Source: Apostichopus japonicus
Taxonomy: Eukaryota; Echinodermata; Holothuroidea; Aspidochirotida; Stichopodidae
Direction of reading: 5' to 3'
NCBI RefSeq assembly: GCF_037975245.1
Contig: NC_092569.1
Span: 33,873,668-33,937,667 of the forward strand
Length of the DNA: 64,000 bases
Part shown: piece by piece, positions 3,168 through 60,168 of the stretch
Layout of the letters: the number at the start of each line of letters is the position of its first letter
How positions within the stretch are numbered: the stretch's first letter is position 1
Notes under the pieces: model-generated
The model's input: only the letters and a program-made list of their open reading frames with translations
What the model was told of the DNA's origin: nothing
The model's database searches: none
Made by a program: the position numbers and the translations under genes

Positions 3168-4500
3168 CAAACACAAACACCGCCACCCGATTCATACAGA
3201 GATAAAATCTTACAGTTTAGTACCACAGTAAAAAATACTGAAACGTGCTGATAAATCGGTAGCATGTGTTATAGGACTACGGTAAGAACTGAGGATATGT
3301 GTAATCCTAGCAAATGCATCATCATGTATGGTACGATTTATCAGCACGATCCTCTTCGTACTGTACGAGGTATAAAACTAACATTAATACTATTAATATT
3401 AGAAGCCTCGAGTTACTGTGTTCTCTGTGTGTATCGGTTGCACACACACGCCATTGTAAAATAGAAGTAATCTGTAATAACTATCCTTAAATTAATCAAT
3501 ACTAAAATTGATACGTACAAGATGCAGGTGTAGTACTTCTATTATTTCCCATTAGTTGTTGTTCCTTGCATAGTTATGTTCCCAGATTCCAATGAATGAC
3601 AATTGTCCATTTCTTTTGGTTTAAGGAGAATTGGTGTATAGGTCTGCTAAAGAGGAGCACACATGTCCCGGTTGTGATCTCTGGCAAGCGTCATAAGTTA
3701 CAACTAGGTTGCAACCATGGGAGACATATGTTACTTAACCTTGGTTTCCCTTACGAATCCAATATTAATGGTTTAGGTTTTTGTTTTATCCTCTCGTTTA
3801 GTGTTAGCCTAACAGTAATCTACGTTATTTCATGTTCTGTGTAATCTTTGGTAGAAGAAGTGAAAAGTTCTAGGAACAAGTTTTGTCCACTCCCTGGAGA
3901 TTGTGTAGCCGAGCTTACGGTAAGATCTGGTGTGGTACTGTACTGGGATGAATAATTTCTCAAACTTTGAGCCAGAAGAATACTGAAATTAATTATATTA
4001 ATTTCTAAACAGGTAAGAATTCATATTTTAATTTTGCCCCAGACCTTTCCATAATCTTGTCATTTTCGAAGTGCATTCCTTGTGTATTTTAGTTGTGAAC
4101 GTGTATACATGGTAATTTTGTGATGGCAATATGCACACAGAATAGCAGTCCACTGTGTAAGTTTCTATTTATGTAAGTGATCTCCTGTGATGGCAGAATG
4201 CAAACAGGTTGTATCTATTACTTAAAGCGTTTTATTTTGTTCTATCTACTTGTGAAGTCTTTATTTTTTGTAATCTACTTAAATATTGCTTCATTTTTAC
4301 TGTTGGTTAATACTATGTTTATAGGGTTGATTACGGCATTTATAATACCCTACCTCAACCAGGACAAGATATGTGTGTAGCGTTATGATGTGACCTACAT
4401 TGAGATTATGTAATAGTATCGTAAGTATAAGTTTAGGTTGTTGTTGATCAAACGAAAACCCACATTTGGGATATTTATTGGTTTTATTAGGCTTATGTAT
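3168..4500. other. Left flank of unit A, no gene seen
   Basis: This stretch is nearly identical to 34431-35755 but has no counterpart left of unit B or D. No convincing coding region is present. Confidence 0.5.
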
Positions 4501-4629
4501 TGTTATGATACTGTAGAGCATTACCCCCCTATTACTGTAACGCACTCATGATTGTTATATGGTTGATACTAAGTGGCGCCTATTCGAACTATGTTTAGAT
4601 CCCACGATGCAATGTTACACGTTTTACTA

Positions 4630-5254
4630 GTTGCCATGGTGACCGGAATTGCCAAACTTTTCGTGAACTGGTATGCTGATAGAGTTGTAGCCACATGTCA
4701 GTAGACATGTCGATTAATCGTGTATTATGTGACCTGAGGAACCAATGAGGTCGTCTCGTTAAAATGTTAGCAAAGGCCTTTGCATGTCTTTAGCTCTATA
4801 AGTCATCCCATTAATTGGTGCAGATTACATCTGACCAGATATAGCGGATAGGCTTGGTAATCACATACCAGATATAGTGGATAGGCTTGGTGATAACTAT
4901 TGTCTCTGACTAGATATAGTGGATAGGCTAGGTGATCACATGTAGTCTCTGCTTTGCAGCTTATTGTTTGAGTTAGCTCGAGTTAGTTAGTTGCCAAGGC
5001 AACCAGTAGTCTAAGTCAGTAATTATGCATTGTTGAAGTAGTCAGTGTGTTAGTTGTGCACTGTTGTGCCCCTGTCAGTAAATGTTTGTTCTGGAATTAT
5101 GGCGACCAGCACCTAGTTATAGTATGCGACATTTCTAGATTAGTACTGCTATTCTGACTTGGTACAGACAGTCCACTTCTCATCGCTCCCAACGGGATAT
5201 TGTAGTTCCTTTGCCAGTTTTGACATATAAAGTTATTTCAGTTGCCATAGCAAC
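4630..5254. promoter_or_regulatory. Cluster of X-box (RFX-type) palindromes, unit A
   Basis: Three near-palindromic motifs fit the RFX X-box consensus GTNRCC-N2-RGYAAC or its relaxed form: GTTGCCATGGTGAC at 4630-4643, GTTGCCAAGGCAAC at 4990-5003 and GTTGCCATAGCAAC at 5241-5254. A looser copy, GTTACCCATGGTGACC, lies at about 5308. Units B and D keep only degenerate forms of some. They lie upstream of the fibrinogen pseudogene on the plus strand. Function is inferred from the motif only; they may belong to a repeat. Confidence 0.35.
4834..4950. repeat. 43-bp minisatellite, about 3 copies
   Basis: The repeat has the core GACCAGATATAGTGGATAGG followed by CTAGGTGATCACATATAGTC. The same array occurs in the other units with different copy numbers. 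Confidence 0.75.
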
Positions 5255-5269
5255 AGTTGCCGTGGGTAA

Positions 5270-5560
5270 TATTTTAATTTTCCTGAGTATTCTCTCTCGG
5301 GGGGGGGTTACCCATGGTGACCGAAATTGCATGACTGTGTGTGTGGGGGGGGGGTCAAAACCTGTTTGTGTAAGTGGGCGGTGTGTCAATGTGTGTGTCC
5401 AATTATGTGTCAAAAACTCCTAAACGGCTAGGCCGATCTTCAACCTTGGTGGGTAAGTACTCCAAATAAACCATTGTATCTCGCAGACAGAAGCCAGAGG
5501 CCAAAGGTCAAATTCGAATGGAAATCTTAATTCACTGAAATTTTTCCTTTGTTAGTAATC
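5270..5560. repeat. GT/G-rich dispersed-repeat-like block
   Basis: A G-run, a GTGTGTGTG tract and the phrase AACTCCTAAACGGCTAGGCC followed by CTTGGTGGGTA occur in all four units. This phrase style is typical of dispersed non-autonomous repeats in marine invertebrates. It gives open frames on both strands that I do not regard as genes. Confidence 0.4.
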
Positions 5561-5633
5561 AATGGTCAGCTGTAAGTTAAGATGTGCACTTATTCTTGTA
5601 ATCGTTGTAATCTTTAACTTTCTTCTCATATAG

Positions 5634-6849
5634 GACTTACAGAGAAACAACGAGTTTTCTACAAGGAATGAGCGGAATTCTGTTTCAGCTATAAGGGAAC
5701 ATGTTTATGAATTTATAATGCCAGTGATGGTAAGGTTAGTACAGGATTCCATTCTGTCGAGGTTCGGAGAGTGAGGCGCTGTAGAATTTTTTTTATTTAT
5801 TTATTTTTTATTTATTTATTTGTTTCATCCCATAGTATAACAAGATGAGCAAGACAATATAACTGCAAATAATTAAAAAAAATGAAAGGAAGTAAACCAA
5901 GAAACCCTTTTGGGTTTAATCGAAGAGTAATCCCATCACAGACACTAGATAACCTTAACACCTATCAAAGAATTACCCCCATAAAAAAAATGGATGACTT
6001 TACCAAATAAGACCTATAACACTACCCCCACCACCACCAACTCCCACCCCTTGCAACGGATCCAATAATATAAAAAGGTTTTTATTGCTATTTTTCAGTT
6101 GTCGCCTGAATGAAGCCACGGAAGTATAAGATTTCAAGTTGATCGAAAGATTGTTGAATCATAGGAGAACAGGACTAACTGATTGTTGCGAATGCGGTAG
6201 ACTTTAACAAGCAACTATACTTTTTTTTAAATGAGGTTGTTATTGTTTTATTAAACTAAACCAATACGGACGAAACATGCAGACTGCGCAAGAAAGTCGA
6301 ATGAAACAATTCGACAATTAATTGCTGTCTGCGCTCCTCGCAGATGCCTTGTATTTCTTTTAACAACAACCTGAATATGCGGGATATTGTAAGGATGTCT
6401 TTGAACAATGTGACGAGGAATCGTCTGACGGGGTCTACCACATACAACCCGACAGTCTAGATCTATGGAACCATTTGCTGTTAACCGTAACAACACTATA
6501 GATGAAGGAGGCTGGCTGGCTCGTACGTGAATGATGATTTCCACAATCATCAATGCCTAGTAGAAAGTTGGCGTGATAGTTACAAATCTCTGTTATCAAT
6601 AGTGTTTATTTTCATGACAGGTTACGATGCTTTGTCAATAGAGGAATGGCTTTCTCAACAAGAGGTCTTGACAATGACCGTTGGACTTCTCTCTGCGCTG
6701 ATTATTATAACAACGGCTGGTGGGCGAGACTGTTTTCAAGCTCTTCCGAACTTTTCCGTGTATTGATGGCCCGCCCTCATTTGTATAACTTTCCAGGCGG
6801 TAAATCTTGCAACATCCAACTTATAGAAATAAAGATAAGGCCTTTGTAA
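5634..6849 (+). pseudogene. Fibrinogen-related (FReD) pseudogene, unit A
   Basis: Three exon remnants are visible. (1) 5634-5729 is a 96-nt phase-0 exon between CATATAG and GTAAGG, encoding 32 residues from DLQRNNEFSTRNER to EFIMPVM. (2) From 6344, after a strong pyrimidine tract and CAG, is the start of a fibrinogen C-terminal domain: CKDVFEQCDEESSDGVYHIQ, then PF and DEGGWL. (3) From 6621, after TTTTCATGACAG, is the domain end with the FSTRG...DNDRWTSLC core and the C-terminal IEIKIRPL. Lesions: extra bases after the VYHIQPD codons, a 4-nt loss before RGMAF, and a shift before the WW pair. A LINE fragment sits in its intron at 5788-6155. FReDs are secreted lectin-like recognition domains; this copy cannot make one. 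The middle of the domain is not seen. Confidence 0.8.
5788..6155 (-). mobile_element. 5'-truncated CR1/L2-type LINE fragment
   Basis: On the minus strand the segment encodes the end of a LINE ORF2 (SINLKSYTSVASFRRQLKN), followed by 3' UTR and an ATTT/AAAT-type tail. GAAT occurs at both borders (5784-5787 and 6156-6159) as a target duplication. Unit D has the empty site (GTAGAATCAATAGGAG near 51038), which confirms the insertion. It is shared with unit C but not with B or D. Confidence 0.8.
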
Positions 6850-6933
6850 TGTCACAATATTTGATTCTGGATAGCTTAGCATAATATGTATATAAGTAAT
6901 TAGAACGAAAGTCTGCAACCAGATGGTACCCAA

Positions 6934-7670
6934 ATTACCATATTTCAAAGGCCATGTGCTATTTAAAGACTGGGAAACCAATGAATTTAAAGAAACTGTA
7001 GCCCCGCCCTCCAGCTGAAAAAGCACTTACTGTGGAATAAACCTCAAGAGAACATAATCATCAAAATAATAAGTCATTTTCAACTGATATTCTCTCTAAC
7101 ATTTTTATTGACATATACAAGATATTATAAAATTTCCAAAAGAAAAGAAAAGCGCAAAAAAAGAAACGTAATACGAGAAATTACCATATGTCCAAAGGCC
7201 ATGTGCTATTTTAAGACTGGGAAACCAATGAATTTAAAGAAACTGTAGCCCCGCCCTCCAGCTGAAAAAGCACTTACTGTGGAATAAACCTCAAGAGAAC
7301 ATAATCATCAAAATAATAAGTCATTTTCAACTGATATTCTCTGTAACATTTTTATTGACATATACAAGATATTATAAAATTTCCAAAAGAAAAGAAAACG
7401 CAAAAAAAGAAACGTAATACGAGAAATTACCATATGTCCAAGGCCATGTGCTATTTTAAGACGGGGAAACCAATGAATTTCAAGAAACTGTAGCTCCGCT
7501 CTCCAGCTGAAAAAGCATTTACTGTGCTTTAGACCTCAAGAGAACATTATCTTTAAAATAATAAGTCATTTTCAACTGATATTCTCTCTTACATTTTTAT
7601 TGACATGTACGCAAAAAAATTCGCAAATAAGAAACGTAATAAGAGAGAGATTCTAAAAAGTGTTTCCCAA
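6934..7670. repeat. 246-bp tandem repeat, 3 copies
   Basis: Copies begin at the phrase ATTACCATAT at 6934, 7180 and 7426. Each contains CCAATGAATTT, AAAGCA, ATAAGTCATTTTCAACTGAT and a run of AAAGAAAAG. Units C, B and D have 2, 1 and 1 copies. The last copy is the most diverged. Confidence 0.85.
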
Positions 7671-10038
7671 GGACGATTGCCCTCTAATGTGCACTTCAGT
7701 TCATGTAGTTTCATATTGGATCTCTACGATTTGGTTTGATTAAACTCACTTCCCAATACACCTTCATTGCACTCTACCGTTATTATTACAGGTAGAATAA
7801 AAACCTCACAATTATAATTTTTCTAAAGGTCGTATCTGTGTTTGTCCGAACATATTTATTTCAAGTTTTAGGTATTGGTTAGTGGGATCATATCATGTTT
7901 TGATTCTGTAACAAAACGAAGGAGTGAAAGCCCTCTCTTAAAATACAAAGGATGCATTTTTAATGTCAACATGAAAACTTGTGTACTATACAGTTCTGAG
8001 CGTATAATATATCCATGTTAATGGAGGGGGGAGGGGGGTAGAAAACAAGAAAGGGTTAGGGAGAGGGGGAAATCTAAGGTGACGCATAGTTCGAGGAGTG
8101 GTACAATCAGACTTTGATTTGAGATCCAAACAACAATGAAACCGTTTGCAAAGGTGGAACCCCTGTGTATTACGTGCTACAAATTCCGGTCTCTATATGT
8201 GTTTTCATTAAGTAATTTTGTTGCCCTTAATTTTACAACAAAGTTGCACTTTTTAATAACCCTATTGTTAAGGATTAACAACAGGGTACATTATTTTAGT
8301 CCGCAATTCGTCTTCATGAAATAAAATGAATCTCTTTTGGTTAAAATAAGTTTGGCGTAATATTTATATCTCATGATGACTCGTTTGATTTCAAGGATTA
8401 CTTTAAGGATTACTTTAAGCATCAAATTATTATAATTAAAACACATGCTGCCAGTCCGAGTTGTATTCTTATACAATTTAAATAAAAAACAAACAAAACA
8501 TGCAGCTCATCTGTAGTTAACCCGATGGGCTATACTTAGTCTAACGTACAAACCATTTGTATACGTTACATAAATCTTTAGGAACGAAACGTGTATGGTC
8601 TCAAAAGTCATGTTTGCTATTGTATTAAACATTAATGTCATGCAACATTAAAGTGATAAATAAATGAACCGAGATGATCTAAGTTACCTTACATGGCTTA
8701 TTCCAATGGTGCTTCACATATATAAACTACGTAGTTTGATGAAAAAAAAATGGAGGAGTATCAAAATATATGTGTGAACTCTACTCTCCTCATAAAAACA
8801 ACAAACGGTTTATGATATCGTTTATCATGAAAATTGATAACAATAAAAACGTATACATACGTTTATATACCTCTATTAAAGTTAAACTTTGTCCCTGCAA
8901 CAAATTTGTTTTGAGGCCTCTTCATATCAACATCATAAACATGCTACTTTGTAACATTTAATAGTACTTGAAAGGGAATAACATTGGATTAAACACTCGA
9001 TTCTCATGGCTTTATCAGTTAAAACTGGTAAATTGTGAGTACCTGTTCATCAGATATAACTGATGTGTGTTACAATTTCTTAACATGTGTTACATTTATG
9101 ACCAGTTGCTACTGAAAAGGACCTATACAAACACAAAATACTTAACACACAACTATATCCACATAATACAAACCAGACTACTCTAAATCTAAATATATAT
9201 GTCCTCACAACATTATTGTGTGGCTAAGATATGAATTTATCAAATTTGGTGGTATCTACATCATTTGGGAACGGCAGAGTTAAAGATGTCAGACGGTGTG
9301 TAATGAATTAATGAAATTATAATTACAAAGAACATTGAAAGTGAGGAACACATTCCAACGGTATCAGGTTTCAAGGATAAAGAAAGAAGAATTCAGATTT
9401 TCAGTTTTGAAGACCATGCATTTGTCGTTATTGTATCCAAGACCACTTACTGCTATCTATTCCTAGGGAGAATCGACGGTTTAGTCAATGAAAATAAGTT
9501 ATAGTCAATCAGCCAGTTCTTCAGTTATGGACAAGAAATTGAGATGAAATTACCAATAAACAGTTATTTATAACAGAATATATGTCCATCCATATAGGTG
9601 TTACATTGTCAGCAACCGAAAAAACAAAATAACAAGCAGTTAGTAGTGCATTTTGTATGAAGTGTCTCTTCACTATTTTATAAATGATTTATATAGTTTT
9701 TTAAAAGGTTTTTATAGTCTTTTACATCATTATGCTTACCCCTTCTCCGTGTCATTCATGACGAGTTCAACCTGATTAGTCCTTGCTTGGTATACACCCC
9801 CATAAAAGACGATGATTTCCGGGTGTCACGTGATCTACGAAATAACCAACGTTGTTTTCCGAATCTTTGCTAATGAAGCAGCTGCAGCAAAAACATACTT
9901 CACAAATGAGTATAATGAGTAAGATAAGAAAGAAAGATTTGTAAACATCGTTGATCACGTTTTTCTTTCCGGGCATATACCAAGCGAGGGCTAACCAGGT
10001 TGAACTCGTAAGGTAGGTCATCGGCATTCAATAACGTC
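7671..10038. other. Spacer downstream of TRIM-A, no intact gene
   Basis: Collinear with the other three units but with scattered indels and stops. Part of 9400-10020 looks like remnants of plus-strand coding sequence (better preserved at 22071-22259 and 40878-41081), which I cannot assign to a family. Confidence 0.45.
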
Positions 10039-10164
10039 CTAAACTTTAACAGTCACGTCTTTATCGTCAACCTTTGCTGAGGCTGTTTCTTTTTGAGAAT
10101 CTTCACATTTCAGAGTGTCTTCTTTGTCTTGCACAAATCTACTCAGGTTTATACCACGGGCATT
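10039..10164 (-). CDS. Candidate last exon of TRIM-A (41-residue tail)
   Basis: The 126-nt block starts after a strong acceptor (TTTTTCTTTTATTTAACAG) and reads only in phase 0, from NARGINLSRFVQDKEDTLKC to a TAG stop after VKV. The upstream large exon ends at 11792 with ATG|GTAAGA, also phase 0, so the two join in frame across a 1627-nt intron. Units C and D have the same exon at exactly the same length, with mostly conservative differences; unit B lost it. The tail is hydrophilic and acidic with no known motif. The splice is inferred, without transcript evidence. Other exons in between cannot be ruled out. Confidence 0.7.
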   Translation of the reverse strand, partial: NARGINLSRFVQDKEDTLKCEDSQKETASAKVDDKDVTVKV

Positions 10165-11460
10165 CTGTTAAATAAAAGAAAAAGCAACAAAATGATACTT
10201 AAAAAAACCCACATATCTGCATATTTTTCTACTTAAAGTATCAAAATTTTGTCCTCATGCTTATTGCTATCTATCTCACCTTCGAAATGATGGTAACAGG
10301 AGTCGCTCTCATGTAAAGGCTTATTAGATCAATTAATAGAGTAGAGCAATTCTCTGTGATCCAAACGAATATTACAACAGTTTAAGCAACTCTCTACTAA
10401 ATGTGCGAGATTTAATTGCAAATGTGTAATCGATTAATAAAATATATTATTTAATGAATGCCTGCATTTGGTGATTTTAACATCGCATACGCATACGTGT
10501 GTGAACAACTGCTGGGCTACTGCCTTTGACTTGGAAGATTCTGTAAGTAATTTGCAAGTAGAAAATGCATGTATAGTTGAAAATGATGAACAGGTTTGTA
10601 AATACGCACTTGATATTCGTACCTTTGTTATCATGGAACACGAGAACTATATATTTCTAAACGTATATAATTACTTAACTAATGACGTTTATCCTAGCTA
10701 TTTCTATACTCGGAACTATACTCGTAGATTCGTAGGGTTTATACGTCATGAAGTAGGCTATAGGGTCTAAATTTATCAATGAAGATATATTTACTTCATC
10801 ATTACTCACTCTCCACAACCCCTATAGTGTTCGTCCTCGCTTTAGCGATGTTATTTTCAAATTGCGTCATACTCCTTCGAAATCAACCACATTTATTTAC
10901 CTTAGCACTCAGAAAAGATGGTGTCTGGGTAAAATAACTCAATATCAGTGGGCATTTTGTTTTTCAAAACGACTCATTCTTTAATTATAATCCTACCGAA
11001 ATTTATGAATGTAAGGTAAAATAGCTTCAATTGGTCATGCATAGCTTAGTAATTAAAACAGCTTAATAATTTGAAGATAGAGGGGTGGCATAAGGTAACT
11101 TTATAAAGTCCAAACAGTCGTGCATTCTTATTCTTTCAATACAAAATAGATCATTTGCTTAAAACATATCCCTTGGTATACTTCTTACGTTAAATATTTA
11201 CCTGGCTACATGGAATATTTTTAGTGTTACTAATATATTACTATCTAGCGTGATCCCACTGCATTTTATGTTAACTATTATGACCAACACATTATGTAAA
11301 GAGATGGTTAAGACAGCTTTATGTTCTATCATGAAGTTGCAAAATGTTTTCATTAGTTGCTGAAGATATTGATTTATGAATCAGCAATGATGTATGCGGC
11401 CTTACCAAAAGCTTGGCCTAAATGTTTTAACCTCTAGATAATAAAAATAATACAGCCTTA

Positions 11461-11527
<67 letters not shown>

Positions 11528-11791
11528 AATGATAATTTCACTTTTTCCAATAAATCAATTTATTCAATAAATACGGAAATGGTAATTTCATAATGGTGTC
11601 CTCTTGAAGTTAAAAGTGGCGTTTCATCACACACTGTAGCCAATATGCATCCCAGCCTACGCAGCCTATGCCATCTTGTAATTTAGACAAACGTTAGAGA
11701 AGAGGTTGGGTATGTTTTTACTAAGCGTTGCGCACCATGACTTGATAATTTCTACAAAACACAATCGATGTTAATTTAACTAATATCTTAC
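10165..11791 (-). other. Proposed intron 2 of TRIM-A
   Basis: It runs from GTAAGA at 11791 to AACAG at 10165. It holds plus-strand coding-like remnants (about 10829-11021, related to 55680-55868) and a (TA)n tract at 11464-11524. No further minus-strand exon was evident. Confidence 0.55.
11464..11524. repeat. (TA)n microsatellite
   Basis: About 30 TA repeats. It lies at the equivalent place in all four units, about 250-400 bp past the large exon. Confidence 0.95.
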
Positions 11792-14122
11792 CATATAGAA
11801 TGCTGTTAATTCGCCGCGAGGTGTGGCCACCGCTATGCCACCAAATCCCTCCTTTGGAGTAATAGGTGCCATCATGGTGACCTTTACGTCAACTGTAAAC
11901 TCGCTGATAAAGGTTCCTTTTTGGGTATACTGCATAACTACTTTGGGTACATCTTCATCCTCTTCATCGCTTTCTGATGAACCAATGGAAGGAAAAGACT
12001 TCTGACTTTCGTCACTGCCATCTTCGTCTATGTTGTCCATGTTTGAATCGGGAATATTAAGACTTAGCCTTTCCCATAACACGTACACTAAGCCTTGTTG
12101 ATCTGCGCATATTTTCATTGGTCTATCATCGTCGTGTCGGCTGTGATACTGATATAACTGTTCGCCGAGGTCATTAATCGCCACGGCTTTACGTTTTCCA
12201 TCACAAAGGAGAAGATTTCCATCTTTAGAAGATGAGAGCGAAACAGGATGCGCCATATCATCGACCTTAATTGGGATATTTGATATTTCCTCGGCTTGAA
12301 GGTTACACCGATAAAGTGACGTTGTGCCACAGATGCCAACAATTACTTCAAGTGCATCTAACCCTTGCGTGATACATGTAACCTCTGTTTGATTAGTACT
12401 TAGCTCAAAGGGACTGCGCTCGTCTTCCCCGTCATTATCTATATAATATAGGTCTGACGAGTTATTTATGATTGCCACGAGTGAGTCTTCAATAGTATGG
12501 TTCATCTTTGCAATAAGAACCTTTCCCTCTGTGTCCTCAAATGGAAGCTCAAGTGTGTCATAGTTACCAGTTGTTAAAGTGTCCTCTGTTTCTGTATTAA
12601 AAGTGTATACCTCCGCGTTCCCATCGGCAGCAATCGCCAACGTTAGAATATATTTGTCGGAGAAAGCTCTTAGATCAGTAATTGCTTCATCGATACTAGT
12701 AACATGCAATTGATGCCATTCTTCGTCGATGAATGGAGAACGATATAAACCTAGAAAAGAAGACATAGTTTCTTTCATTTCATCTTCGTCGAATTCGCTA
12801 TCCTTTTCTTCGCCGCTGGGGATACTGCCCTTTTCGGAATCTGTCTCACCTTCAGATTCATCGCTCGTACTGCATTCAACTTCAACATCAGATCCGCTGC
12901 TGGGGATACTGCCCTTTTCGGAATCTGTCTCACCTTCAGATTCGTCGTTCGCACTGCATTCAACTTCAACATCAGATCCGCTTTCGTAATCTGAATAGCA
13001 AAAACACTTTGCAAGGTCCTGCCTCATAGAACGTGAGTCATTACGTACCCCTGAACAAGCTGTGAGAAATTCAGGGGCTGTCGAAAGAACAGACCAATTG
13101 TCAGCAGTCTCGGTTAAAACACGAGATGTTTTACAAATATTTTCCACTTTACTTTGAACATTAGTTAGGTATTTGTTTGATTTTTCAATGAAGTGTTTGG
13201 AGAACATCTTTCTAGTGTGAATCTCAAACATAATAAAGTCCTTGCCAGTTTTGAAGATTTGGAGTTTTCTTTCTGCTTTCTGTTTAATCTTCAGTTTCTT
13301 TTCTTTCAGTCTTCTCAAAGCAGATTTCATTTCTTTCTTAATTTTGTCTTTGTGTGCTTCACTGTACTCGTTGACTGTGCTTTCTAGTTTAATGTAATCT
13401 TCCTCAAGTTCTTCAAAAGCTTTTGTTAACAGTGCATCATTGCTTATCCTTTGCCTTATTTTTTTTGTAGAGGATTGAAATTTTTCTTTCATTCTATCGG
13501 CCGCTGTTGAAATTTCTTCAAACTTGTGACCAGGATGATGTATTGGAGCGCACACGGGGCATATCAACTTATCGCATGTTTGACAGCTGATATGCAAAGG
13601 CATGTCCTTGTGAGTAGGACATTTTGGTGTTTTGGATAGAGAAGTCACGGTTTGAGCATTAAATGTTACTGTGCCTGCTTCAATATCTTTTAACGTTACA
13701 AGATGAGTATGAAGTCGTAACATTTTCATCGACTTATGGCATAACATACAATCATTGCAGAGGAAACCACCACAATCAGGACATATCGCCACGACCTGCT
13801 TGGTCGTCTCACACGAACTGCAAATTTGTTTCTTGTGCTTGTCTTTCAGAGTGATCTCCAATTTCCGGCTTTCCAATATAGCTTCCAAGAGAAAATCACC
13901 TTTAAATCCATCGGCTCCACTTTCTGGTACATCTGTCTGTTGTCGACATGTAGGGCAATTGAAAATGGTATCCCTGGTAGCAATCCTATTGACAACTTGA
14001 GACAAACATTTTTTACAGAAGCGGTGAAGGCATGGTAACATTTTAGGCTCTTCCAAAGTATCAAGGCAAATGGAACAAAGTAAGATTTCCTCATCTAAGT
14101 TCGACGGGTTTGCCGTTGCCAT
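11780..14122 (-). CDS. TRIM-like RING/B-box protein A (large exon)
   Basis: Probable cytosolic E3 ubiquitin ligase of the TRIM type. The start has a near-ideal Kozak context (CACCATGG). Domains by residue: RING C3HC4 at 16-59 (C16, C19, C31, H33, C36, C39, C56, C59); B-box 1 at 101-140 (C101, C104, C114, C117, C122, C125); B-box 2 at 168-199 (C168, H171, C180, C183, C188, C191, H196, H199); charged coiled coil at about 205-300; Ser/Glu/Asp-rich linker at about 376-455 with two tandem 28-residue repeats (G382-S409 and G410-G437); and a C-terminal region of about 300 residues with beta-propeller-like phrases (LLLCDGKRKAVAINDLGEQL). The 780 codons end in TAG, but ATG|GTAAGA at 11792/11791 is a strong donor. 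The native protein is probably 777 residues plus a 41-residue tail. The propeller assignment (NHL or WD-like) is inferred. Substrates are unknown. Confidence 0.9.
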   Translation of the reverse strand: MATANPSNLDEEILLCSICLDTLEEPKMLPCLHRFCKKCLSQVVNRIATRDTIFNCPTCRQQTDVPESGADGFKGDFLLEAILESRKLEITLKDKHKKQICSSCETTKQVVAICPDCGGFLCNDCMLCHKSMKMLRLHTHLVTLKDIEAGTVTFNAQTVTSLSKTPKCPTHKDMPLHISCQTCDKLICPVCAPIHHPGHKFEEISTAADRMKEKFQSSTKKIRQRISNDALLTKAFEELEEDYIKLESTVNEYSEAHKDKIKKEMKSALRRLKEKKLKIKQKAERKLQIFKTGKDFIMFEIHTRKMFSKHFIEKSNKYLTNVQSKVENICKTSRVLTETADNWSVLSTAPEFLTACSGVRNDSRSMRQDLAKCFCYSDYESGSDVEVECSANDESEGETDSEKGSIPSSGSDVEVECSTSDESEGETDSEKGSIPSGEEKDSEFDEDEMKETMSSFLGLYRSPFIDEEWHQLHVTSIDEAITDLRAFSDKYILTLAIAADGNAEVYTFNTETEDTLTTGNYDTLELPFEDTEGKVLIAKMNHTIEDSLVAIINNSSDLYYIDNDGEDERSPFELSTNQTEVTCITQGLDALEVIVGICGTTSLYRCNLQAEEISNIPIKVDDMAHPVSLSSSKDGNLLLCDGKRKAVAINDLGEQLYQYHSRHDDDRPMKICADQQGLVYVLWERLSLNIPDSNMDNIDEDGSDESQKSFPSIGSSESDEEDEDVPKVVMQYTQKGTFISEFTVDVKVTMMAPITPKEGFGGIAVATPRGELTAFYMVRY
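12812..12979 (-). repeat. In-frame 84-bp duplication in the TRIM-A acidic linker
   Basis: Two tandem 84-bp copies encode GSDVEVEC...DESEGETD...KGSIPS. The other three genes have a single, often shorter copy. Confidence 0.85.
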
Positions 14123-14158
14123 GGTGAATTTCGATATATATTCTCCTTGAGGTTGACC

Positions 14159-14248
14159 TGAGTGGTGAGTGAAAAGTTACATCTGAGAGTTTATTTGCAG
14201 TATTAGGTATGTGGTAAATTAGACGCCTGTACAAAGAGGTTTACTTAC
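14159..14248 (-). other. 5'-UTR intron of TRIM-A
   Basis: It has a GTAAGT donor at 14248 and a CTCACCACTCAG acceptor ending at 14159, 36 nt before the ATG. The equivalents in B, C and D are 92, 91 and 91 nt. Exon 1 is non-coding. Confidence 0.65.
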
Positions 14249-14475
14249 AGAAATTATTATTCCTTCAAAACCACAATGGTTGTCACATTTTGATGCTGGA
14301 AACATCATTATATGTTGCGACAACGTTTACTTGTTTAGGTTCTTTCGAGAAATGTGGAAAAGGTTACTTAATCAATAGCGTAATATTACAGGGATTTTTA
14401 TTATTTATCTCGTTTTCATTACTTTTTCACCTAGCTATTTATCCGGTAGTTTTAAAATAAAAGTACGTCTTCGCA

Positions 14476-14832
14476 TTGAGAAAGAATATCGCTTTCTTTG
14501 CTATTTTATTCTTAAGATTACTCTTTGACACAATCAACATCTTGAGATTGAAAGTAACAATAAAAAACAATAAAAATAAAAGTCACGAAAGTCACGAAAC
14601 ATTTGCATCAATTTTACACAGTGGGTCAACATTCCAATCAAATGTTGAGGCGATTATTGATACGTCGAAAACATCAACAACAAAATTAGATTATATGACC
14701 CATTCCTATTTAGAGTTTTCAAGGCAATTACATTTGGCAGCTGAAGCAAAACAACAAGCCATTCACCATCAATTGGTCGATCGCCAGCCTACAGCAACGA
14801 ATCGAAGCGGTGCAACCTTTGCCTCGGAGTAA
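14476..14832 (+). other. Divergent open frame upstream of TRIM-A, doubtful
   Basis: 118 codons on the opposite strand over the proposed promoter and exon 1. It starts with a hydrophobic stretch (NIAFFAILFLRLLFDTINIL). It is kept as 113 codons in unit C but diverges after the LDYM codons in B and is broken in D. No family recognised. It may simply be conserved non-coding DNA. Confidence 0.2.
14601..14620 (-). promoter_or_regulatory. Octamer motif in the TRIM-A upstream region
   Basis: On the minus strand an ATGCAAAT octamer (14601-14608) lies next to AAAATTG. In the other units this is part of TATAAAATTGATGCAAAT; here the TATA is changed to GTAAAA. The motif is conserved in all four units about 480 nt before the ATG, so it may be core promoter. 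Function is inferred from the motif. Confidence 0.35.
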
Positions 14833-17859: not shown

Positions 17860-18217
17860 AACTTCGACAGAGATGACCTCTTTCTGTTATGATACTGTAG
17901 AGCATTACCCCCTGTTACTGTAATGCATTCATGTTTGTTATAAAGTTGATACTAAGTGGCGCCTATTCGAACTATGTTTAGATCCCACGATGCAATATTA
18001 CACGTTTTACTAGTTGCCATGATCACCGGAATTGCCAACCTTTTCATGAGCTGGTATGCTTCTAGAGTTGTAGCCATATGCCAGTAGACATGTCGATTTA
18101 TCGTGTATTATCTGACCTGAGGAACCAATGAGGTCGTCTCTTTAGAATGTTAGCAAAGGCTTTAGCATGTCTTTAGCTCTATAAGTCATCCCATTAGTTT
18201 GTGCAGATTACATCTGA

Positions 18218-26560: not shown

Positions 26561-26595
26561 GGTGAATTTCGATATTTATTCTCCTTGAGGTTGAC

Positions 26596-29794: not shown

Positions 29795-29810
29795 CTGGCG
29801 CGTATCCAGG

Positions 29811-34280: not shown

Positions 34281-34346
<66 letters not shown>
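34281..34346. repeat. (TA)n microsatellite
   Basis: About 33 TA repeats, close to the left border of the second large block. Confidence 0.95.
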
Positions 34347-34348
<2 letters not shown>

Positions 34349-34430
34349 AGTTGTCAGTGTAAGGTGTAGGGTGAGGCGCACGCCCCTTCCGATATCCTCG
34401 ATCCGTCACTGGCTAAACAAACAAAAGTAA

Positions 34431-38070: not shown

Positions 38071-38154
38071 TGCCACAATATTTGATTCTGGATAGCTTAG
38101 CATAATATGTATATAAGTAATTAGAACGAAAGTCTGCAACCAGATGCTACCCAA

Positions 38155-43379: not shown

Positions 43380-43380
<1 letters not shown>

Positions 43381-43436: not shown

Positions 43437-43437
<1 letters not shown>

Positions 43438-46083: not shown

Positions 46084-46118
46084 GGTGAATATTGATATAT
46101 ATTCTCCTTGAGGTTGAC

Positions 46119-46209
46119 CTGAGTGGTGAGTGAAAAGTTACATTTGAGAGTTTAATTGCAGTATTAGGATTGTGGTAAATTAGACGCCTGTAAAAAGAGG
46201 TTTACTTAC
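46119..46209 (-). other. 5'-UTR intron of TRIM-C
   Basis: 91 nt, from GTAAGT at 46209 to CACCACTCAG ending at 46119. Confidence 0.65.
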
Positions 46210-46778: not shown

Positions 46779-49269
46779 GAAACCCAATAGGTTAGGCTTA
46801 ATGTGACATGCCTAGACTGAAGTGTTTATGTCGGAGGACTAGTCCCCATAGGTTACACCGAGGATCAGCCCCCCCCCCCTCCATAAGTTAGACTTATTCT
46901 GGCATGCCCATAGAGTGTATGTGTTTATGTTGTGCTTTGTTGTGAACGCTGTCATGGTAGTTATAAAAGAGTACCCGGCTGCTCGACTATCAATCAATTA
47001 TTAGTTTTTGGTGACCTTGCTACACTGCTGTTATCATAGCCTACATGTCCGTTCAAAGAAAGGTCAAAGTAATTGACGAAAAATGTTGTTAGTTAACTAT
47101 AGTTTTAGTTCAGTTCACTAAAACGAAGCAGTCACGATGAAACCAGAGGTGGGCGTTGTCAAACATTTGGATTTGAGAGGGAGAGGCGCACAGAACAATA
47201 TTTGATGGTCGTATGCTGGGGGTAGTTCAAGCTGGAGCCAGGGGCGACAGTGAGAGAGTGGGCGCGGGACGAGGGGCACGAGGCGCAAGGCCATACGGGC
47301 GTAGGGTCTCTCTAATGGGGTTCCAATGAGGTAAGTCCCCTGACGCTCTGAAGTTTTCATCGTTTTTCAGAAAAGTATACACAGAGAATTAAGATGATCA
47401 TAATTGTATACAAAATGTTGAAAGCCATCTGGGCATCATGTATTTGACATTTAGATCAAGAAACATTTGATAGGCATCAATATGTTAGGTAAGCATCACA
47501 ATTTGCCCGCGTATGATGTTCTATGTTAACTATACACTAACAAAACCAGCAGTATGAATAACCCATAGCACATATTTATCATTCCCTATGAATTAATCCT
47601 TTCTACTGTAAAGAACATAATTTAAAAGGATCTGCGTTTTTAAGTTGTTTAATTTACTGCACCTACAGATTTTCAACTTACCTTCCTGTACAAGATGGCG
47701 CTTGCTACAGTTCCTGATATGGATTGTCGGTTGTACTTCCTTGTCTGGTTTTAATGATACAGTACCTTTGCAGCTTACAGTTTTAGTCATTAAGCTTTAA
47801 AATTTCGTTTTCAATCGTGTAATAGACCTATCTGTAGCCTTTGAACCTAGATTAATATTATCGCACTTCACTAAAACTGAGAGAACGTTCCAGAGTACTC
47901 ATAGTAAAGATAGGCATCAATATGTTAGGTATGCGTTGACTATGCTATTTTATGTTTACTATACACTAATGACACCAGCAGCATGACTACCGTATAGCAC
48001 ATAATGTACAAACACACTCAATAGAGTACACAAAGTGACAAAATATGAATATATTTACTGTTTGAAGTTTAGCTCTCTTCGATGTTTGAAGAGTACAAAA
48101 TGAACCTCCGATAGTCAATGTGGCAGCTGCAGAGTTATTGTTCGATATCCAACAGTTATTGTTGTCAAAAGCCAGTTAGGAATATTTCTTATGTTAATAT
48201 CTCTCTAAACTGTACTCCAATATCATGCTCTCAAAGCACTGGTATTGACTGTACACATGGTTCCTATCCTTGAGCTGCTCGTACAGACAATACGAGTGCT
48301 CTGAAGCGGAACATGACACCATACAGTATAGAAACAATTGTCTCAACTGGGTGTAGTCACAAGTCTGGTTTTCTCATGCAACTATATTATGCGAATCCTG
48401 TGGACTATTTGGCATCTTCCAATCGACTGGGGCAGCGTTGGTGGGTGGGGGATGTCCAGATGATTTGTAGCTGAGATTCTGCCATCTGTGGGGATAGGTT
48501 CTAAGATGTTTTGTAGCTGAGATTATGCCATCCGTGGGGATAGTCTTAAGTTCGCAGTGCTCATCAGCCGTGACGTTTTGGTTTCGCTGGGCGAGTCATG
48601 TAAAAGGCATTTTGCTTTTAATCGCTGTAGAAGGCTTCTTATGGTGGGTTTACAAGATTTGATGATTTAATTGGTGTAAGCTGCGTGCAGGGGATTGGTT
48701 AGTTTGCTGCTTTATGTTTGTTCTCTGTAGGTATTGTTACCATGGGCGCAGATAGCTTTTCTAAGGTCAGGGCAGGGCGAACGTCACATGGAATCCAGAA
48801 TGACGTCATACTACAAAACACTCGTCACTATTATCAATATATGGATTTCAGGAATATGTTAATTAGACCATGAATGAGCTAGGTATCACCTGGAAGGAGA
48901 GTTTATACCATGTGGTTTTTCTAGACCATAATTTCATAAGGAATAAGAATATCTTGGGTAAAATGCCCAAATCTTGAACGCACCCCCGAAAAGGGTTGTT
49001 CTTTCTGGGGGTCCACTTTTAAGGAAAAAATACGAGAGGTTACATTTACACACAAATAGAATAAAATGTGATTTTTCTAGACCATAATTTCATAAGGAGA
49101 AATAATATCTTGGGTAAAAAGCCCAAATCCTGTACGCACCACCGAAAAGGCTTTTTTTCTCGGGGGTGTGCATTTGTTTAAAAAAATACCATCAGTTACA
49201 TTTACACACAAAGAAGATAAAAAAACTATTATTAACCTCAAACTTTAAACCCAGTTAGTTAATTAAGCC
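46779..49269. other. Spacer between units C and D
   Basis: Counterpart of 14833-17313: a C-run at 46870, a GC-rich patch at 47230-47300, two copies of the 46-bp minisatellite at about 48470-48560, and two copies of a roughly 160-bp repeat from 48941. No gene supported. Confidence 0.5.
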
Positions 49270-49894
49270 TTATATATTGGATGTGGTAACACTGTGGTGG
49301 TGGGGAGTACTGGGGGTCTCTAAAGGACCCCTATTTAACCTTAACTGCACTGGGGGAGCATTATGACATTTTTTTGCAAAGGACGTGAACCGTTTTAGAT
49401 ATAAACTAGATTCTTTCATGACTTTACCCCACGTCTTGTGAACATTATGACACCACTTTTGTCCATATAGGGCCCCTGCAGGGTGAGTTATGTACCAATT
49501 TGTGATGACGTCACAGAAATATTTTCGATTTTTACCTTGACTTGTGTACAAAAACTTTAGTTTAAATAGGATAAAAATACTCTAACTTGGGAAGTTAATT
49601 TAGAAGTCTGTTAGCTTTGAAGTACATAACAATTATGCTTACTTAATCTTCTGAATCGCTATCATTACTGTCGCCTAGAAAGTCATCACAATCATTATCT
49701 AGAAACAGTTTTTGCACATCGAAGTCTTCCATAACCTTCTCGGGCCATCTCAGCTCTAGTGATTCTCTCCATCCATTGTCAACAATGTTTCCAGCTTCAT
49801 AACTACTTACGATCGCTGAGCGCCATTCTCTAGCAATGAAGTTTGATCTAATAAGGATAATATAGATTTGGAATGGGCTAATGTATATGGTCAC
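49270..49894 (-). pseudogene. Unrecognised protein, broken copy
   Basis: Counterpart of 17314-17859. The first part (49643-49894) keeps EWRSAIVSSYEAGNIVDNGW and ends DSNDSDSED followed by a stop. The second part (49270-49551) keeps NRKYFCDVITNW and GALYGQKWCHNVHKTWGKVM and then runs into an unrelated C-terminus. It may be a two-exon gene with a different donor or a pseudogene; the stop favours the latter. Confidence 0.4.
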
Positions 49895-50239
49895 AACTTC
49901 GACCTCTTTTCTGTTATGATACTGTAGAGCATTACCCCTTGTTACTGTAAAGCATTCATGTTTGTTATATGGTTGATATTAAGTGGCGCCATTACGAACT
50001 ATGTTTAGATCCCACGATGCAATATTACACGTTTTACTAGTTGCCATGGTCACCGGAATTGCCAACCTTTTCATGAGCTGGTATGCTTCTAGAGTTGTAG
50101 CCATATGTCAGTAGACATGTCGATTTATCGTGTATTATGTGACCTGAGGAACCAATGAGGTCGTCTCGTTAAAATGTTAGCAAAGACTTTAGCATGTCTT
50201 TAGCTCTATAAGTCATCCCATTAATTTGTGCAGATTACA

Positions 50240-55026: not shown

Positions 55027-56307
55027 CTGTTAAATAAAAGAAAAAGCAACAAAATGATATAAACCACATAGCTGCTTAGTTTCTCTCCTTAAAGTATCGA
55101 AATTATGTCCTGGTTATTGCTATCTATCTCTACTTACAAATGATTGGTAATAGGTGTCACTCTCATTTAAAGGCTGGCTAGCTCAATTATTAGAGTAGAG
55201 CATTTCTCTGTGATACAAAAGAATACTACAACAATTTAAACAACTCTCTACTGAAGGTGCGCGATTTAATTGCAAATGTGTAATCGATTAAAACAATATA
55301 CTATTTCATGTATGCCTTTGTGTATTCGGTGATTTTATATCGCACACGCATACGTGTGTGAACAACTGGTGGGCTACTGTCTTAGACTTGGAAGTTCCTG
55401 TAAGTAATTTGCAAGTAGAATATGCATGTAATTGAAAATGATGGACAGGTTGGTAAATACGCACTTGATATTCGCATCTTTGTTATCATGGAACACGAGA
55501 ACTATATATTTCTAAACGTTTATAATTATTTAACTAACAACGTTAATCCTACTACACTATACTCGTAGATTCGCTGGATTCTCTGGATTTATGCTTCATG
55601 AAGTAGGCTAGAGGGTCTAAATTTATCAATGAAGATATCATATTTACTTCATTATCACTCACTCTCCACAACCCCTATAGTGTTCGTCCTCGCTATTAGC
55701 GATGTTATTCCCAAGTTACGTCATACTCCTTCTAAATCAACCACATTTATTTATCTTATCACTCAGAAAAGATGGTGTCTGGGTAAAATAACTCCAAATG
55801 GGGATTTTGTTCTTCAAAACGACTCATTCTTTAATTACAATCCAACCGAAATTTATGAATGTAAGGTAAAAAAGCTTTAATTGGTCATGACATAGCTTGA
55901 TAATTTGAAGATAGAGGGGTGGCATAGCTTAGTAAAATTTACAACTATACCGTCCAAACAGTCATGCATTCTTATTCTTTCAATACAAATAACATAATTT
56001 GATTAACATGACTCTTGGTATAAATACTTACGTTAAATGTTTACCTGGCTACATGGAATATTTTTAGTGTTATAAATATATTACTATCTAGTGTGATCCC
56101 ACTGCATTTTATGTTAACTATTATGATCAACACATTATGAAATGAGATGGTTAAGAAAGCTTTATGTTCTATCGTGAAATTGCTGGCAACATGTTTTCAT
56201 TAGTTGCTGTTGATATTGATTTATGAATCAGCAATGATGTATGTGGCCCTACCAAAAGCTTGGTCTAAAAAATTTTAAACCTCTAAATATTAAAATAATA
56301 TAGCCTT

Positions 56308-56386
<79 letters not shown>

Positions 56387-56791
56387 CCTTACAAAAAATT
56401 TGTCCACAAAATAAAAAAATATCCAATTTCACTTTGGATGTTCAATTTGGATTTCCAGAGCGAATTGATAGTACCCTCTTGAAGTTAAAAATGTCGTTTT
56501 AGGGAATGTTAAGCTTCTAAACATTGAGATGATAATTTCATTTTTTCAATAAATCAATTTAGTCAATAAAAACGAAAACGGTATTTTCATAATGGTATCC
56601 TCTTGAAGTTAAAAGTGGCGTTTCATCACACACTGTAGCCAACATGCATCCCAGTCTACGCAGCCTATGACATCTTGTAATTTAAACAAACGTTAGAGAA
56701 GAGGTTGGGTATGTTTTTACCTAAGCATTGCGCACCATGACTTGATAAATTCTACAAAACACAATCGATGTTAAATTAACTAACCTCTTAC
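55027..56791 (-). other. Proposed intron 2 of TRIM-D
   Basis: Contains, on the plus strand at 55680-55868, the best copy of the unassigned remnant AISDVIPKLRHTPSKSTTFI, then GKITPNGDFVLQNDSFFNYN. It also has a (TA)n tract at 56310-56384. Confidence 0.5.
56310..56384. repeat. (TA)n microsatellite
   Basis: About 37 TA repeats, the longest in the window. Confidence 0.95.
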
Positions 56792-58978
56792 CATATAGAA
56801 TGCTGTTAAATTGCCGTAAGGGGTGGCCACCGCTATGCCACCAAATCCCTCCTTTGGAGTAATAGGTGCTATCATGGTTATATCCTTGTAAACTGTAAAC
56901 TCGCTGATAAAGATTCCTTTTTGGGTATACTGCATAACTACTTTGGTTACATCCTCTTCATCCTCTTCATCGCTTTCTGATGAACCAAGGGAAGGAAAAG
57001 ACTTCTGACTTTCGTCACTGCCATCTTCGTCTACGCTGTCCATGTTCGAATCGGGAATATTAATACCTTGCGACTCCCATAGCACATACACTAAGCCTTG
57101 TTGATCTGCGCATATTTTCATTGGTCTATCATCGTCGTGTCGGCCGTGATACTGATATAACTGTTCACCGAGTTCATTAATCGCCACAGCCTTACGTTGT
57201 CCATCACAAAGGAGAAAGTTTCCTTCTTTCGTAGATGAGAGAGAAACAGGAGGTGCCATATCATCGACGTTAATTGGGATATTTGATATTTCCTCGGCTT
57301 GAAGGTTACACCGATAAAGTGTCGTTGTGCCACAGATGCCAACAATTACTTCAAGTGCATCTAACCCTTGCGTAATACATGTAACCTCGGTTGGATTACT
57401 ATTTAGCTCAAAGGAACTGCACTTGGCTTCCCCGTCATTATCTATATAATATAGGTCTGACGAGTTATTTATGATTGCCACAAGTGAGTCTTCAATAGTA
57501 TGGTTCATCTTTGCAATGAGAACCTTTCCCTCTGTGTCATAAAATGGAAGCTCAAGTGTGTCATAGTTACAAGTTGTTAAAGTGCCCTCTGTTTCTGTAT
57601 TAAAAGTGTATACCATTACGGTCCCATCGGCAGCACTCGCCAACGTTAGAATATATTTGTCGGAGAAAGCTCTTAGATCAGTAATTGCTTCATCGATACA
57701 AGTAACATGCAATTGATACCATTCTTCGTCGATGAATGGAGAACGAGATAAACCTGGAAAACTAAACACATTTTCTATCACTTCATCTTCGTCGGACTCG
57801 CCATCCTCTTCTTTGCGGCTGGGGATACTGCCCTTTTCGGAATATGTCTCACCTTCAGAACTGTCAAAACACATTGTAAGGTCCTGCCTCATAGAACTTA
57901 TGTCATTAAGTACCCCTGAACAAGCTGTGAGAAATTCAGGGGCTGTCGAAAGAACAGACCAATTGTCAGCAGTCTCGGTTAAAATACGAGATGTTTTGCA
58001 AATATTTTCCACTTTACTTTGAACATTAGTGAAGCATTTGTTTGATTTTTCAATGTAGTGTTTGGAGAACATCTTTCTAGTGTGAATCTCAGACATAGTA
58101 AAGTCCTCGCCAGTTTTGAGGACTTGGAGTTCTCTTTCTGCTTTCTGTCTAATCTTCATTTCCCTTTCTTTCAGTCTTCCCAAAGCAGATTCCATTTCTT
58201 TCTTAATTTCGTCTTTTTGTGTTTCAGTGTACTCATTGACTGTGCTTTCGAGTTTAATGTAATCCTCCTCAAGTTCTTCAAAAGGTTTTGTAAACACTGC
58301 ACCATTGCTTATGCTTTGCCTTAATTCTTCTGTAGAGGTTTGAAATTTTTCTTTCATTCTATCGGCCGCTGTTGAAATTTCTTCAAACTTGTGACCAGGA
58401 TGATGTATTGGAGCGCACACCGGGCATATTAACTTATCGCATGTTTGACAGCTGATATGCAAAGGCATGTCCTTGTGAGTAGGACATTTTGGTGTTTTGG
58501 ATAGAGAAGTCACGGTTTTAGCATTAAATGTTACTGTGCCTGCTTCAATATCTTTTAACGTTACAAGATGAGTATGAAGTCGTAACATTTTCATTGACTT
58601 ATGGCATAACAGACAATCATTGCAGAGGAAACCACCACAATCAGGACATATCGCCACGACCTGCTTGGTCGTCTCACACGAACTGCAAATTTGTTTCTTG
58701 TGCTTGTCTTTCAGAGTGATCTCCAATTTCCGGCTTTCCAATATAGCTTCCAAGAGAAAATCACCTTTAAATCCATCGGCTCCATTTTCTGGTACATCTG
58801 TCTGTTGTCGACATGTAGGGCAATTGAAAGTGGCATCAATTTTGTTTACAACTTGAGACAAACATTTTTTACAGAAGCGGTGAAGGCATGGTAACATTTT
58901 AGGCTCTTCCAAAGTATCAAGGCAAATGGAACATAGTAAGATTTCCTCATCTAAGTTTGACGGGTTTGCCGTGGCCAT
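56780..58978 (-). CDS. TRIM-like RING/B-box protein D (large exon)
   Basis: Shortest member, 732 codons. RING with the B-type short loop (NKIDATFNCPTC), two complete B-boxes, coiled coil, and a strongly shortened acidic linker (SSEGETYSEKGSIPSRKEED). The propeller-like region contains LLCDGQRKAVAINELGEQLY. Near the end it has the A/C-type ESQKSFPSLGSSESDEEDEE tract rather than the B-type segment. All indels relative to A-C keep the frame. Donor ATG|GTAAGA at 56792/56791 predicts 729 residues plus the tail at 54901-55026. The start is in GGCCATGGTG context (minus strand CACCATGG). The ligase role is inferred from the RING. Confidence 0.9.
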   Translation of the reverse strand: MATANPSNLDEEILLCSICLDTLEEPKMLPCLHRFCKKCLSQVVNKIDATFNCPTCRQQTDVPENGADGFKGDFLLEAILESRKLEITLKDKHKKQICSSCETTKQVVAICPDCGGFLCNDCLLCHKSMKMLRLHTHLVTLKDIEAGTVTFNAKTVTSLSKTPKCPTHKDMPLHISCQTCDKLICPVCAPIHHPGHKFEEISTAADRMKEKFQTSTEELRQSISNGAVFTKPFEELEEDYIKLESTVNEYTETQKDEIKKEMESALGRLKEREMKIRQKAERELQVLKTGEDFTMSEIHTRKMFSKHYIEKSNKCFTNVQSKVENICKTSRILTETADNWSVLSTAPEFLTACSGVLNDISSMRQDLTMCFDSSEGETYSEKGSIPSRKEEDGESDEDEVIENVFSFPGLSRSPFIDEEWYQLHVTCIDEAITDLRAFSDKYILTLASAADGTVMVYTFNTETEGTLTTCNYDTLELPFYDTEGKVLIAKMNHTIEDSLVAIINNSSDLYYIDNDGEAKCSSFELNSNPTEVTCITQGLDALEVIVGICGTTTLYRCNLQAEEISNIPINVDDMAPPVSLSSTKEGNFLLCDGQRKAVAINELGEQLYQYHGRHDDDRPMKICADQQGLVYVLWESQGINIPDSNMDSVDEDGSDESQKSFPSLGSSESDEEDEEDVTKVVMQYTQKGIFISEFTVYKDITMIAPITPKEGFGGIAVATPYGNLTAFYMVRG

Positions 58979-59013
58979 GGTGATTTTCGTGATGTATTCT
59001 CCTTGAGGTTGAC

Positions 59014-59104
59014 CTGAGTGTTGAGTGAGAAGTTACATTTGAGAGTTTAATTCTAGTATTGAGAATGATGTATCTTAGACGCCTGTTCAAAGCGGTTTAC
59101 TTAC
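59014..59104 (-). other. 5'-UTR intron of TRIM-D
   Basis: 91 nt, from GTAAGT at 59104 to ACACTCAG ending at 59014. Confidence 0.6.
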
Positions 59105-59444
59105 AGAAATTATTAATCCTCAAAACCAGATTAACACTTTCAGTAGATGATATTTGTCTCATTAATGATTGTCACATTTGGATGTTGTTAAACATTATTA
59201 TATCGCTTTACTTATTTAGGTTCTTATTTTGGAATTATGGAAAAGATAACTTATCAATATTATTACAGGAATTTTCAACATCCATCTCATTTTTATTACT
59301 TTTTCGAGTTATAAAATAAAAGAACACTCTCCGGATTGAGAATTAATCTCCTTTTTTGCTATTTCATCCTCAATATTACTCTTAGACAACATCACCATCT
59401 TGAGATTGAAAGTAAAATAAATCGTTGTAAATAAGTCAAGGTAC

Positions 59445-59462
59445 ATTTGCATCAATTTTATA
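59445..59462 (-). promoter_or_regulatory. TATA/octamer-like element upstream of TRIM-D
   Basis: TATAAAATTGATGCAAAT on the minus strand, identical to B and C. Confidence 0.35.
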
Positions 59463-60167
59463 CAGTGGGTCAATATTCCAATCAAATGTTAAGGCGATTA
59501 TTGATACGTCGAAAATATCAACAACAAAGTTAGATTATATGACCCACTCCTATTTAGACTTTCAATGCATTTACATTAGTGGCCAAATTCTTATGCAAGC
59601 TTCATACAAATTAGCACACTATACTACAATAGGTAATACACTGCAAGTGGATTTATCCAGGCATGTTGTCAATCGCCAAAGTTAGTGTACATACAGAGGG
59701 AGGAGGCGATACCCCTTCCGACCAATCAGAACGTAAGGAAAACAAAGCGAGGTCTCTTAAAAGAGCAGAAATCAGCATAATGGACCTGCTGAAATTCTCT
59801 AATTAGGAGCCGTAACACTGTTAAACTTACATAAGTAAATTAGTCTTGGAAAACTGACTGTACAACTCTAGACAATTGAAAGGAGAACATAAATATATGG
59901 ATAGATTGGGATTCAAGCCGGTGTCAGAAGTTACTGGTTGGATTCCCGTTCTTGTCATCAATCTCTTTTCGAATGTTCAACTCTGTAATGGAACGGTAAC
60001 CTGCTATTTTGCACTATTCTGCTTTTTCACAACAATATAACATTGTCTGTGCCAAAACTAAGCCTAGTTGTCCTAATCATTCACTGAGTCATCACATTAA
60101 CCATAAATGCAAACCTTTTGTTCTTATATACTTATCCTCATACTTGTGTAGAGGTTCTAGCGGTTGT

Positions 60168-60168
<1 letters not shown>
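59463..60168. other. Right flank of unit D, no gene supported
   Basis: Matches 27056-27795 of unit B, including GGATTCAAGCCGGTGTCAGA. Cut off by a (TA)n tract and the LINE. Confidence 0.55.

Follow-up and report, generated by a model that had tools for sequence, protein, structure and literature searches.

The window analysed here is a 64,000-nt stretch of the genome of the sea cucumber Apostichopus japonicus (C9:33873668-33937667, RefSeq contig NC_092569.1; the genome comprises 671,581,487 bases in 35 contigs), and it was read together with its surroundings as an extended stretch of 114 kb. It carries four related TRIM-like genes in tandem, as a first-pass annotation of the sequence had stated; they are named A to D and all lie on the minus strand. 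We put at roughly 85% the probability that the array arose by two nested duplications, first of a single gene unit and then of the resulting pair, followed by ectopic gene conversion in the gene bodies. The nested order was already proposed in that annotation and is borne out by flank trees, by 17 collinear blocks and by shared insertions. The order of duplication is legible in the flanks and not in the exons, and a gene tree by itself would therefore leave the history unsettled. The array represents a known mode of gene-family growth, which is here unusually legible.

Extent and collinearity of the duplicated block

Self-comparison and collinear chaining align copy 1 of the block (3169-34415, 31.2 kb, made up of units A and B with the dispersed element between them and a flank on either side) with copy 2 (34429-75082, holding C and D) over 22,404 aligned bases in the 17 collinear blocks. 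Copy 2 occupies 34429-64000 within the window and ends near 75082, 11 kb beyond it; this continuation was first detected through a match of the B flank to sequence past the window end. The left edge of the block (3169/34429) was placed correctly in the annotation according to both the self-comparison and the alignments, and the proposed ancestral unit of about 13 kb agrees with the size of a single unit (the A unit is 4501-16830). The outer left flank (3169-4500) and the right flank (30322-34415) lie outside this unit, yet both are matched in order by copy 2, the right flank in just three pieces with 426 aligned bases. Since these outer flanks belong to the block and each was copied once, the A-B pair was copied as a pair; the chain thus holds at least two units copied together with their outer flanks, as in a nested tandem (block) segmental duplication. 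Serial tandem duplication of single genes, in which A gave B, B gave C and C gave D with no block copy, would by itself fit the exon identities (proteins B, C and D are 85, 88 and 87% identical to A), but it is contradicted by the collinear outer flanks, on which we rejected it, and by flank sites and shared insertions, which favour the A-C and B-D pairings; we regard it as hardly credible.

The duplicated pair had been given as about 26 kb, with the array ending at 60168. This position is the edge of a long interspersed nuclear element (LINE) present in copy 2 only (60170-64000 in the window and on to about 64843; 4.7 kb, plus strand), which accounts for the apparent end of the duplicate. The collinear chain resumes past it at 64844, ruling out a 26-kb block ending at 60168, and the block is about 31 kb long; the earlier estimate was short by about 5 kb in block length and about 15 kb in end coordinate. 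Reverse transcriptase (E = 2.6e-31) and endonuclease (E = 5.3e-8) domains were identified in the LINE by Pfam, within an uninterrupted endonuclease/reverse-transcriptase frame (62060-64582). The element sits in a TA-rich place with TA repeats on both sides, and copy 1 has about 54 bp instead (27797-27850) at the matching place. A tblastn search with the two frames of the LINE (E <= 1e-3) over the 114 kb matched only the LINE itself.

Copies 1 and 2 are separated by a junction of 13 bp (34416-34428) that is absent from the ends of the other copies. Comparison of the two outer block breakpoints with each other detected no homology. The 13 unmatched bases together with breakpoints lacking detectable homology favour joining without homology (break-and-join), which probably explains this junction better than unequal crossing-over between repeats.

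Order of events recorded by the flanks

Variable sites were classified by the split they support, given below as AC|BD : AB|CD : AD|BC, with coordinates on the A unit (prefix A) and the non-homologous left edge excluded. The left flank gives 71:0:1 (A4510-5745), 25:0:0 (A5745-6875) and 46:2:3 (A6875-9319), and the right side 44:1:0 (A13900-14700) and 24:0:3 (A15558-16220). When the unit was divided into ten segments, the approximately unbiased (AU) test rejected both rival topologies in seven; two of these are partly coding, and the leftmost segment takes in about 100 edge columns. The flanks therefore decisively support ((A,C),(B,D)), the tree that the first-pass annotation had predicted for them. 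The tree it had set against its own account, ((A,B),(C,D)), comes out with the highest likelihood in one of the ten segments, an unresolved one in which C and D were homogenised.

Shared insertions tell of the same pairing. A and C have three more residues in the RING loop than B and D do, an indel seen in the protein alignment and correctly described before. A 247-bp tandem repeat (previously given as 246 bp, with the same distribution of copies) is found three times in A (6932-7610, last copy partial), twice in C (38153-38588, last copy partial) and once each in B and D. The extra flank sequence at 27171-28010, reported as common to B and D and missing from A and C, holds up as well: among its 24 genome matches one is itself and two are in D (87-88%), and the other 21 are shorter than 90 bases, so that at length it occurs in B and D only.

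A dispersed element with at least 66 genome matches lies, with its edge, at the A|B junction (16840-17884), and a matching one lies at the C|D junction (48870-49903) with 89% identity to the A copy over 1 kb. The next best genome match of comparable length has 82% identity, and shorter pieces elsewhere reach 88%. An intronic LINE fragment had been listed as a feature common to A and C; a shared element is indeed present at the two junctions, but its assignment to the LINE class is unsupported (three frames gave no Pfam family at E <= 0.1), and it may differ from the element that was meant. No inverted repeat of at least 20 bp was found in either junction region.

Divergence and age of the block

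The divergence (K) between copies 1 and 2 ranges from 0.037 to 0.177 by block, being 0.037 in the leftmost block and 0.09-0.18 to the right of 28385, and A-C divergence falls to K = 0.012 within A5745-6875. A and B differ by K = 0.12-0.17 near the unit ends, in flank segments where the AC|BD split is plainly supported. The reported heterozygosity of the species, in the portion of the source available, is 1.59% by a k-mer estimate (PMC5638244). With most of the block at K 0.04-0.18, the array is neither an allelic artefact nor notably young, and its earlier description as young is unsupported. The accompanying label of a copy-number hotspot is likewise unsupported by the one assembly read.

These figures also bear on whether copy 2 could be copy 1 assembled twice, either as a duplicate or as a haplotype left unmerged. 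The assembly was made from a single female, heterozygosity in the species is high, and in places A and C share 98-99% identity (the K = 0.012 stretch), which is inside the reported heterozygosity. Block divergence well beyond that level and the 4.7-kb LINE in one copy only led us to reject such an artefact, and the 114 kb contain zero N in an assembly described, in the part of the data report at hand, as HiFi-based with a contig N50 of 17.2 Mb (PMC10344927). We judge the artefact to be very improbable; the one left stretch of low A-C divergence was probably homogenised recently.

Mosaic signal and probable gene conversion in the gene bodies

The AC|BD signal drops abruptly on the 5' side of the coding exon, near codon 53. 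The 578-base stretch upstream of the exon (A14123-14700) has 39 AC|BD sites, A13822-14122 has five, the last at A13965 (codon 53), and A12982-13821 has two; the signal returns weakly further on, with six sites in A12200-12499 and five in A11783-11899, and is weak and patchy throughout the exon and 2 kb downstream. Counts by split are 2:1:8 in the N-terminal part of the exon (A12990-13900) and 13:4:8 (A9319-10270) and 3:6:3 (A10500-11460) downstream of it. AC|BD accounts for 180 of 342 variable sites in the flanks, against 22 of 303 over the stretch of the exon and 17 of 338 in the middle part, which is non-coding (Fisher 1e-38 and 3e-47). The flank set of this contrast is inflated by edge columns non-homologous between A/C and B/D, but the contrast persists when the left edge is excluded.

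Silent divergence (dS) separates the copies along different lines from the flanks, with 0.093, 0.081 and 0.090 for AC, AD and CD and 0.175, 0.172 and 0.159 for AB, BC and BD. D is thus nearer to A and C than to B at silent sites: the excess of BD is 0.078 over AD and 0.070 over CD, and 0 of 1000 bootstraps fall at or below zero. Seven rooted exon trees were compared, with four distant outgroups in an arrangement fixed by the analyst. Within codons 101-380 the top tree is (B,(C,(A,D))), and ((A,C),(B,D)) is disfavoured (AU 0.023; Kishino-Hasegawa, KH, 0.054). For the whole exon ((A,C),(B,D)), which had been expected of an exon tree, is among the unrejected (AU 0.46). That expectation is not confirmed. 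The exon test gives no resolution because the exons are mosaic and are poorly described by any single tree.

Non-coding sequence also points to exchange. A homogenised tract at 42656-43380 in C and 55587-56311 in D has 95.5% identity (permutation p <= 0.0005), and the non-coding A10500-11460 gives K = 0.050 for C-D against 0.105 for A-C and 0.129 for B-D. Each of the six copy pairs has a run that is overlong by permutation (p <= 0.0005); such runs reveal that the unit is heterogeneous along its length but not which way each transfer went, and those of A-C and B-D partly reflect true kinship. Likeness of the four exons could alternatively be due to purifying selection alone, with no conversion: the RING/B-box part is little changed (any two copies differ at 6-10 of about 505 nonsynonymous sites, alignment columns 1-215), and the whole-exon trees leave the duplication tree unrejected. 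Silent sites give the same pattern, however, as does the non-coding sequence downstream, and since neither the silent pattern nor the low non-coding C-D divergence is explicable by protein selection, gene conversion among the copies is called for and selection alone appears unlikely. Gene conversion after the block copy is the best explanation of the exon pattern. The exchanges were probably conversions rather than double crossovers, the direction suggested for each transfer is likewise a probable one, and the case for conversion of the D exon comes mainly from silent distances.

Several observations weigh against this account. The tracts were delimited after the data were inspected. The tree (C,(A,(B,D))) stays unrejected over codons 101-380 (AU 0.14), and for the whole exon six of the seven rooted trees are unrejected, the best of them, (A,(C,(B,D))), keeping B with D. 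The 3' exon retains some AC|BD signal (11:4:6 in A11783-12800), and in the segment A11539-12475 the counts are 18:3:5 and the AU test rejects both rivals; the unrooted AC|BD split in the 3' exon also fits (B,(D,(A,C))). The divergent C terminus of B (dS 0.30-0.35, alignment columns 651-801) could inflate all B distances, although columns 151-300 alone, which exclude it, give dS of 0.182 for BD, 0.059 for AD and 0.094 for CD. Finally, the divergence between copies 1 and 2 is uneven along the block (K 0.012 to 0.18), so that A-C conversion or rate variation is needed in addition.

Taken as a sequence of events, duplication followed by conversion would have run as follows. Tandem duplication of an ancestral TRIM-like unit of about 13 kb would have produced A and B, with the dispersed element then at the A|B junction. 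The 31-kb block with both genes and the outer flanks would next have been copied head to tail to give C and D, apparently by break-and-join without homology. Ectopic gene conversion between the gene bodies, chiefly within the exon and a 2-kb stretch downstream of it, would have come afterwards, making much of the D exon A/C-like at silent sites and homogenising about 0.7 kb of C and D. The duplication history would have persisted in the outer flanks. It is conceivable, if doubtful, that conversion is focused on the gene body so that the RING/B-box half is kept common while the coil, acidic linker and C terminus drift, giving a set of ligases with a shared engine and varied sensors that is held together by recurrent exchange.

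The encoded proteins and their family

Each gene has one large coding exon, identified from its open frame, Pfam matches and alignment: gene A at 11780-14122 (open frame 11780-14176; 780 aa), gene B at 24248-26560 (24248-26575; 770 aa), gene C at 43831-46083 (43831-46137; 750 aa) and gene D at 56780-58978 (56780-59032; 732 aa). All four proteins contain a RING finger near the N terminus (zf-C3HC4, E 2e-10 to 1e-9) and a B-box (zf-B_box, E about 4e-7), both above the Pfam cut-off. After residue 215 follows a charged stretch, recognised by eye only as a putative coil, where three of the four proteins have Apolipoprotein matches below threshold, and then a C-terminal region in which Pfam at E <= 0.01 found no NHL, SPRY or other named family in any of the four. 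TRIM2, TRIM3 and TRIM56 have a RING, a B-box, a coil and a C-terminal propeller or NHL domain. Structure matching, done for gene A, gave the RING regions of TRIM3 (5e-19) and TRIM2 (5e-17) as best hits, then TIF1-beta (1e-14) and TRIM56 (3e-13); A thus resembles these proteins in the RING region, and A-D differ from TRIM2, TRIM3 and TRIM56 in having no named C-terminal domain at E 0.01. Judged by RING similarity alone, the A-D proteins are predicted to be E3 ubiquitin ligases, and an immune role is plausible.

We also noticed several differences between the proteins. In the acidic linker, A alone has an 84-bp tandem duplication (12811-12982) that adds 28 residues, and D lacks 18 residues; over the 44 gap-free codons of this linker each pair shows 12-21 nonsynonymous and 0-3 synonymous differences, sites too few to claim selection. 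The C-terminal part of B (24251-24700), where dS is well above the rest, also has an extra acidic insert.

A 1-kb exon probe gave four DNA matches among the best candidates scored in the 671.6-Mb genome, all four within the window. A protein search, in which 56 of 637 first-look candidates were scored so that its counts are lower bounds, found at least 60 matched stretches, seven of them A-D and two a fifth neighbour; A-D are therefore a small branch of a large family. The fifth neighbour is a TRIM-like frame of 730 residues on the same strand, about 32% identical to A, which occupies window positions 1-756 and 1.4 kb further left and is an old relative in tandem. With so many TRIM-like loci in the genome, caution is advised in ordering tandem copies by coding sequence. 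Scans of the window for tRNA genes and Rfam families gave no matches.

Comparison with known systems and other loci

TRIM5-type proteins carry a SPRY domain. Young primate TRIM genes lie in segmental duplications derived from a chromosome 11 locus and, like A-D, multiplied by segmental duplication, as described in the accessible sections of one study (PMC3228819); there, copy-number variation was measured in people, whereas the sea cucumber array was read in one assembly, and the primate subclass differs from A-D, which have no SPRY match at the above threshold. The sea urchin Sp185/333 clusters are also echinoderm gene clusters; they contain segmental duplications edged by short tandem repeats, and gene conversion has been proposed for them. 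They encode unrelated proteins, however, and, according to the available part of the source (PMC5103432), none of 10 animals had a repertoire in common with another, compared with the one assembly here. Echinoderm TRIM families are large, with 140 genes annotated in sea urchin, some of them induced by ultraviolet B (UVB) in immune cells, in the excerpted account (PMC13043383). A literature search on TRIM genes in sea cucumbers and echinoderms and on TRIM gene conversion returned nothing on the A-D array among its top results, which is weak evidence of absence, and the available portion of the Holothuria glaberrima genome preprint uses the word TRIM 0 times (PMC13228809).

Work on A-D led to a second TRIM-like array on another contig (C2:13730253-13784756), where a 27.3-kb block is repeated head to tail and a third copy, incomplete and more diverged, comes next. 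The two block copies differ by 91 substitutions (0.42%) over 21.8 kb and by none over 5.6 kb. A frame truncated to 641 residues in one copy (13746548-13748470) corresponds to a longer frame of 736 residues in the other (13773524-13775731). This block copy is far younger than that of A-D; its divergence does not reach the heterozygosity reported, and it may represent either a very recent duplication or an assembly duplicate. It is the better candidate locus for copy-number variation. Block copying may be recurrent in the TRIM-like family; the comparison covered two arrays, the third being on contig C3, and two cases do not establish a rate. Elsewhere in the genome, the COX1 contig gives a higher score with the echinoderm mitochondrial code than with the general invertebrate one (923 against 882 bits for the best structure). 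COX1 matches also occur in pieces on contig C29, apart from contig C35 with the full COX1, and are possibly nuclear or rearranged mitochondrial copies.

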